Assembly (NCBI GenBank): GCA_013817245.1
Contig: JACDDA010000001.1
Span: forward strand, 496,001-560,000
Direction of reading: 5' to 3'
DNA length: 64,000 bases
DNA from: Gammaproteobacteria bacterium
Lineage (GTDB): Bacteria; Pseudomonadota; Gammaproteobacteria; HTCC5015
Made by a program: the position numbers and the translations under genes. Shown piece by piece: positions 37,014 to 37,847 of this stretch. Within the stretch, counting starts at the first letter, position 1. Each line of letters starts with the position of its first letter. The notes below the pieces were generated by a model that saw only the letters and a list, made by a program, of their open reading frames with translations, was not told the origin of the DNA and ran no database searches.

Positions 37014-37102
37014 CCTAGTCGGTTATTTTTTAAAAATAGCATATATGCGTTTAGCTCGCCCGGTCGTTATAACGCTGTGTTTTCTGTAAAAGCATTTTAT
37101 TA

Positions 37103-37296
37103 GCCGGTTGCGCACCGGCGGGCGGTTACTTTCTTGTCGCGACAAGAAAGTAACCAAAGAAGCGCTCCCCGATGTCACGTACTGGAATGGAATAAAATTC
37201 CATTCCAGTATTTCTTCGTCATCTTTCAAGGCTGACGCGCCGCCTCAACGCAACATCGTGTTGCGATCGGCTCACCTGAACATCCCTGCTCAGGTG
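37103..37296. repeat. Interspersed repeat element built of perfect hairpins
   Basis: Five inverted repeats follow each other: GCCGGT/ACCGGC (37103-37119); a 32-base uninterrupted perfect palindrome (37124-37155) whose half is GGTTACTTTCTTGTCG; a 14-base perfect stem with an AAA loop (37180-37210, arm TACTGGAATGGAAT); CGCAACA/TGTTGCG (37249-37265); and CACCTGA/TCAGGTG (37273-37296). From memory, blocks around GGTTACTTTCTT...AAGAAAGTAACC recur in many gammaproteobacterial genomes and are often annotated as spurious proteins. Only one copy is in the window. Frames through it are not credible genes. Confidence 0.75.
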
Positions 37297-37432
37297 TCGC
37301 TAGCCTTTAAAGATTCCTCAGCGTGCCATAGCGGGCATTATCCCTTCGTTTAGCATATGAGTTAAATAAAGCGCGCTAACTTAATTTAAATGCCGTTTAG
37401 ATAAAGCGGCACAGAATTGAGCAATATATAGG

Positions 37433-37822: not shown

Positions 37823-37847
37823 ATGGGTTGAGCAACGCTCAACCCAT
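37823..37847. repeat. REP-like inverted repeat
   Basis: Perfect 11-base arms (ATGGGTTGAGC and its complement) around AAC. The arm recurs at 37433. TGGGTTGAGC-type repeats are common extragenic palindromes in gammaproteobacteria; for the genes transcribed leftwards it lacks a T-run, so it is not a clear terminator. Confidence 0.6.

Follow-up and report, generated by a model that had tools for sequence, protein, structure and literature searches.

Hairpin locus in the window

Positions 37103–37296 of the window (the whole 64,000-nt stretch of DNA that was analysed) had been described from the sequence as five consecutive perfect hairpins, which raises the question of whether such a cluster is a mobile repeat, a structure formed in a transcript, or both. 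Four of the hairpins are indeed perfect (HP1–HP4), including the 32-base palindrome without a loop (HP2), which is exact, and the stem next to it with a loop of AAA only (HP3, 37180–37210, 14 perfect pairs), but the fifth (HP5) contains one mismatch, an A-C on the plus strand that corresponds to a G-U pair at the same position on the minus strand. A scan of the 64-kb window gave few perfect stems of ≥11 bp with a loop of ≤4, and HP2 was the longest of these. The folding energy of the 241-nt stretch was −94.1 kcal/mol compared with −59.4 ± 4.35 in shuffled sequences (z = −7.98, with 0/200 shuffles as low). About 450 bases from the element to which these hairpins belong, an isolated perfect 11-bp hairpin (ATGGGTTGAGCAACGCTCAACCCAT) was present at 37823–37847, and ATGGGTTGAGCAA also occurs near 37432.

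When the hairpin stretch was used as query against its own genome, matches were obtained at some 18 places. A complete copy used as query identified 12 full-length copies of ~570 bp and seven further places that have a half copy or arms lying apart, giving a total of ~19 places, which excludes a single-copy structure. Element boundaries were set by comparing the copies, and the unit present in the window was found to exceed the originally reported span, running from ~37083 to 37345 and continuing as a remnant of the centre up to ~37392, beyond which the B arm is absent (Table 1). Based on this comparison of copies, the window hairpins are a truncated half of a dispersed element.

Table 1. Features of the element copy in the window (positions are those of the window)
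Feature	Position	Strand	Description or basis
Truncated element copy	37083–37392		B-type end, A arm and centre remnant; genome copies compared
B-type end module	37083–37179		~97 bp, with HP1 and HP2; copies elsewhere in genome
HP1 GCCGGTTGCGCACCGGC	37103–37119		perfect hairpin
HP2	37124–37155		exact 32-base palindrome, loop 0, within end module
Outermost stem, 3′ side	37172–37179	−	partner 37322–37329; A-arm alignment columns 7–14 with 159–166
HP3	about 37179–37211	−	side hairpin of predicted RNA domain, 14–15 bp
RF01731 TwoAYGGAY match	37194–37330	−	46.0 bits, gathering score 43
Stem closing HP4 and HP5, 3′ side	37214–37231	−	partner 37304–37321; A-arm alignment columns 15–32 with 106–124
HP4 CGCAACATCGTGTTGCG	37249–37265	−	second hairpin of domain
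HP5 CACCTGAACATCCCTGCTCAGGTG	37273–37296	−	first hairpin of domain
Stem closing HP4 and HP5, 5′ side	37304–37321	−	partner 37214–37231
Outermost stem, 5′ side	37322–37329	−	partner 37172–37179
Remnant of element centre	37331–37392		by-eye comparison with L027 and other copies

Architecture of the repeat family

From either end inward, the complete element consists of an AT-rich terminus containing AAAAGC(G)TTTCGC, followed by HP1, HP2, HP3, a domain of two hairpins (HP4 and HP5) and the centre. The centre is ~100 bp and is flanked by arms of ~250 bp, which have different sequences (A and B) and face outward, with one A arm and one B arm in each of the complete copies inspected. The inverted ends of ~75 bp are made up of two hairpins (HP1 and HP2), and positions 1–101 of the complete-copy query align in reverse with 496–581, thus forming terminal inverted repeats.

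The B-type end module of the window copy was 96–98% identical to sequences at C6:66215, C2:171836, C7:52253 and C6:36680 of the same genome. This level of identity over ~97 bp contrasts with the inner arms, which differ by 15–20% between places in the genome, and suggests that the end module alone may have been recently exchanged or spread. A 47-base piece of the B-type end module was also found, with 96% identity, in another family (G014).

Several copies contain additional sequences. Those at L020, L023, L027, L030 and L031 have an insert inside HP2, consisting of GCCATGGATGGC and a hairpin with GCAGGAGC as loop, in opposite polarity, while those at L022, L027, L032 and L035 have an insert after HP2 with two extra GGA-loop hairpins (TTGCAGGGATGCAA and GAACAGGATGTTC), which share the strand of the arm's own sites. 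A second dispersed repeat, of the type TAGCCTGGATGGAGCC...GGCTCCATCCGGGCTAC, adjoins the element copies at L027, L025, L019, L026 and L035 or lies within their centre. The L022 locus, with ~1.1 kb between its arms, was considered as a candidate autonomous parent, but no Pfam match was obtained for the 180-aa and 121-aa ORFs located there, and the arrangement resembles two separate half copies, which argues against such a role.

The arms match the TwoAYGGAY RNA family

Nearly every arm matched the TwoAYGGAY RNA (RF01731) on one strand, which for the window copy is the minus strand. There were 30 matches in the genome, all at element loci, and 21 of these were above the gathering score. TwoAYGGAY has so far been described as a stand-alone RNA candidate (PMC2864571). 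The arms share its two GGA-loop hairpins enclosed by a longer stem, which are present in the arm family with the second loop of the window copy reading CGA, but differ from a stand-alone RNA in being one half of a mirror-paired dispersed repeat, with hairpin ends and an extra side hairpin.

Matches to RF01731 were present in 18 of 369 sampled gammaproteobacterial genomes, including the genome studied here, and many carriers have several copies, the numbers per genome being lower bounds; six carriers were examined further. Pairs of closely spaced matches in seven genomes were almost always divergent (24 back-to-back, compared with one convergent and none in tandem). The carriers of another genus have the same plan with different sequences, comprising end hairpins, a CTTTTCTTG...CAAGAAAAG hairpin, the side hairpin, the two-hairpin domain and the centre. 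Neither the phage nor the plasmid collection contained a match to the element, and an origin from phages or plasmids was therefore rejected.

Conservation of fold and strand

The predicted fold of the A arms (n = 18) has 59 pairs, with 97.5% of cells pairing and compensatory changes at 16 pairs (11.1 in shuffles), and pairing dropped to only 32–47% when the partner was slid by 1–3 columns, although both the shuffle and the slide controls somewhat overstate significance, since the fold was itself obtained from these same, mutually related copies. With the same reservation, the B arms (n = 13) have 62 pairs with 95.9% pairing, and compensatory changes at 13 pairs versus 8.8 in shuffles. Comparison of copies located five pairs with compensatory changes in HP3. 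The presence of such changes in both types of arm excludes a lack of arm conservation, and together with the match to an Rfam RNA family it supports the suggestion in the original prediction that the hairpins form a transcript structure.

The consensus fold was more favourable on the strand matching RF01731 in each of three alignments (−70.8 versus −61.6, −80.2 versus −65.8 and −81.0 versus −73.2). At pairs predicted on both strands, G-U exceeded A-C on the sense strand by 54:20 in total, with the excess found in the A arms and the arms from other genomes, and not in the B arms alone (9:9). The better fold of the sense strand and the summed G-U excess point to one strand being read, either as RNA or as single-stranded DNA.

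GGA loops and CsrA

The loop of HP5 on the minus strand (CAGGGATG, 37281–37288) matches CANGGAYG, and the loop of the first hairpin is, as judged by its letters, the published RsmA consensus, and also resembles the SELEX consensus of CsrA, RUACARGGAUGU (PMC7705225). Of the arms in the genome, all 18 of type A and 12 of the 13 of type B retain the GGA of this first hairpin, as do the 33 arms listed for other genera (read by eye), and an alignment of 21 arms showed constant CAnGGAyG letters with varying stem letters. The second hairpin had GGA in 15/18 A arms and 13/13 B arms. In the window copy its loop (HP4) reads CGA (CACGATG) where GGA is usual, and CGA was found in 3/18 A arms of the genome and 17/33 arms elsewhere, a frequency that argues against two CsrA sites being strictly required.

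On average, arms had 1.8 GGA-loop hairpins on the sense strand and none on the other strand, compared with 0.04–0.08 in shuffles. GGA in hairpin loops beyond chance, several on one strand and with a CsrA/RsmA-type consensus, is likewise a property of the CsrA-sequestering sRNAs CsrB/CsrC and RsmX/Y/Z, from which the element differs in having two GGA hairpins per arm and many dispersed copies, and in showing no promoter or terminator above chance in consensus scans. This genome encodes a canonical CsrA, and so does each of the 18 carrier genomes tested, which is weak support for a role of CsrA, since this protein is near-universal in this class. Binding of TwoAYGGAY by CsrA was already proposed in a 2014 paper on RNA motifs (PMC4333381), and the present data agree with that proposal and add the repeat context.

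Mobility and genomic placement

At one orthologous site in a related genus, with conserved flanks, the element is present as two arms in two species and as a single arm in two, is reduced to remnants in two more and is missing from four; in the two-arm versions the arms face each other. Such filled and empty sites, together with the ~19 places in the genome, support the earlier suggestion of a mobile repeat. The version of a REP with its RAYT transposase did not hold up, as the genome has three Y1_Tnp/RAYT genes, but matches of the element to the three loci were no more than chance-level, and two of the three carry unrelated palindromes of their own. These palindromes contain AAGGGGTCAGA[CG][TC]CCTT and flank the RAYT genes at L037 (1194–1235 and 1997–2037) and L038 (1643–1721 and 2507–2539), and are probably the own REPs of these two genes. 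REPs are defined as palindromes of 20–40 bp with a GTAG or CGTC tag (PMC3733652). The element shares with REPs, BIMEs and REPINs that it is a dispersed intergenic palindromic repeat occurring in inverted pairs and at gene 3′ ends, but its arms are ~250 bp rather than 20–40 bp.

Using crude gene calls, 10 of the 17 scored copies in the genome were located between convergent genes and 7 between tandem genes, with none between divergent genes. For comparison, the gaps of ≥100 bp in the window were convergent in 3, tandem in 10 and divergent in 8 cases, again from crude gene calls.

Proposed function and alternative explanations

We propose, with about equal weight for and against, that the element is a non-autonomous mobile repeat residing at the 3′ ends of genes, the arms of which would bind CsrA if transcribed. 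The repeat family, its mirror architecture, the conserved fold, the first-hairpin GGA and the filled, half-filled and empty site are demonstrated by genome comparison, and the further steps are proposed on this basis. The sense strand of each arm (the minus strand in the window) is predicted to fold as a TwoAYGGAY RNA, with an outer stem around both the side hairpin and a further stem that ends in two hairpins, of which the first would nearly always, and the second often, present a GGA loop of the CsrA/RsmA type. Scans of the element for promoter and terminator consensus sequences gave nothing above chance, making read-through from neighbouring genes the likelier route by which the arms would be transcribed. 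A CsrA dimer may then bind the arms, which in sum could titrate CsrA, or could tie the 3′ ends of neighbouring mRNAs to CsrA. Whether the family goes as far as forming a distributed CsrA sponge (~30 arms per genome), or a wiring of 3′ ends into the CsrA network that is rewired by transposition, is a more tentative suggestion, which we consider possible but doubtful.

The strongest competing explanation is a purely selfish hairpin element of the REPIN/BIME type that acts as single-stranded DNA. A trans-acting transposase would recognise the arm, including its loop, once one of the DNA strands becomes exposed, and the GGA loop would then be a recognition feature for this nuclease and not a CsrA site. 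Such an element is expected to consist of mirror-paired dispersed repeats with 3′-end placement and a strand-specific structure, all of which apply here, but the unrelated palindromes at the RAYT genes, an arm that greatly exceeds a REP in length and complexity, and a loop that fits the CsrA consensus letter for letter, including the expected free position, make this explanation rather unlikely. The preference for convergent genes and the absence between divergent genes, combined with very stable hairpins, would also fit a bidirectional mRNA 3′-end structure, such as a transcript stabiliser or a block resembling a terminator, which would be under selection where genes converge and would not involve CsrA; this would leave the conserved GGA loop and the multi-helix fold unexplained, and with the terminator scan at chance we think it improbable. 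Finally, the element could be a MITE that is moved passively by a DDE (IS630-like) transposon with a TA target, in which the RNA-like fold is left over, but we consider this highly improbable. The short non-autonomous format, the inverted ends and the TA seen by eye at each outer end in several of the complete copies resemble a MITE, but a search of the genome for the DDE_3 domain found no such parental transposase, the sequence beside the insertion at the empty site is too diverged to show a target duplication, and the arms are conserved as folds with compensatory changes.

The RNA domain and the CsrA hypothesis are already known, and it is the dispersed mirror-paired element that appears undescribed, as no description was found in the literature searched, which excluded most subscription journals and the supplements of the 2010 paper and does not prove priority; nor did this literature contain anything relevant on a link between dispersed repeats, MITEs or REPs and CsrA. 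RF01731 was put forward as an RNA candidate in 2010 and has stayed an orphan, accompanied by a computational CsrA hypothesis, and its recognition as the arm of a dispersed, mirror-paired and apparently mobile element in gammaproteobacteria provides an origin for this RNA and explains its multiple copies. It also becomes testable whether a global post-transcriptional regulator can receive its ligands from a mobile repeat, or have them rewired by it.

A separate repeat of ~270 bp (query 1705–1976), which is very abundant in the genus of G270 with many copies per genome, was also found inside one copy of the element.
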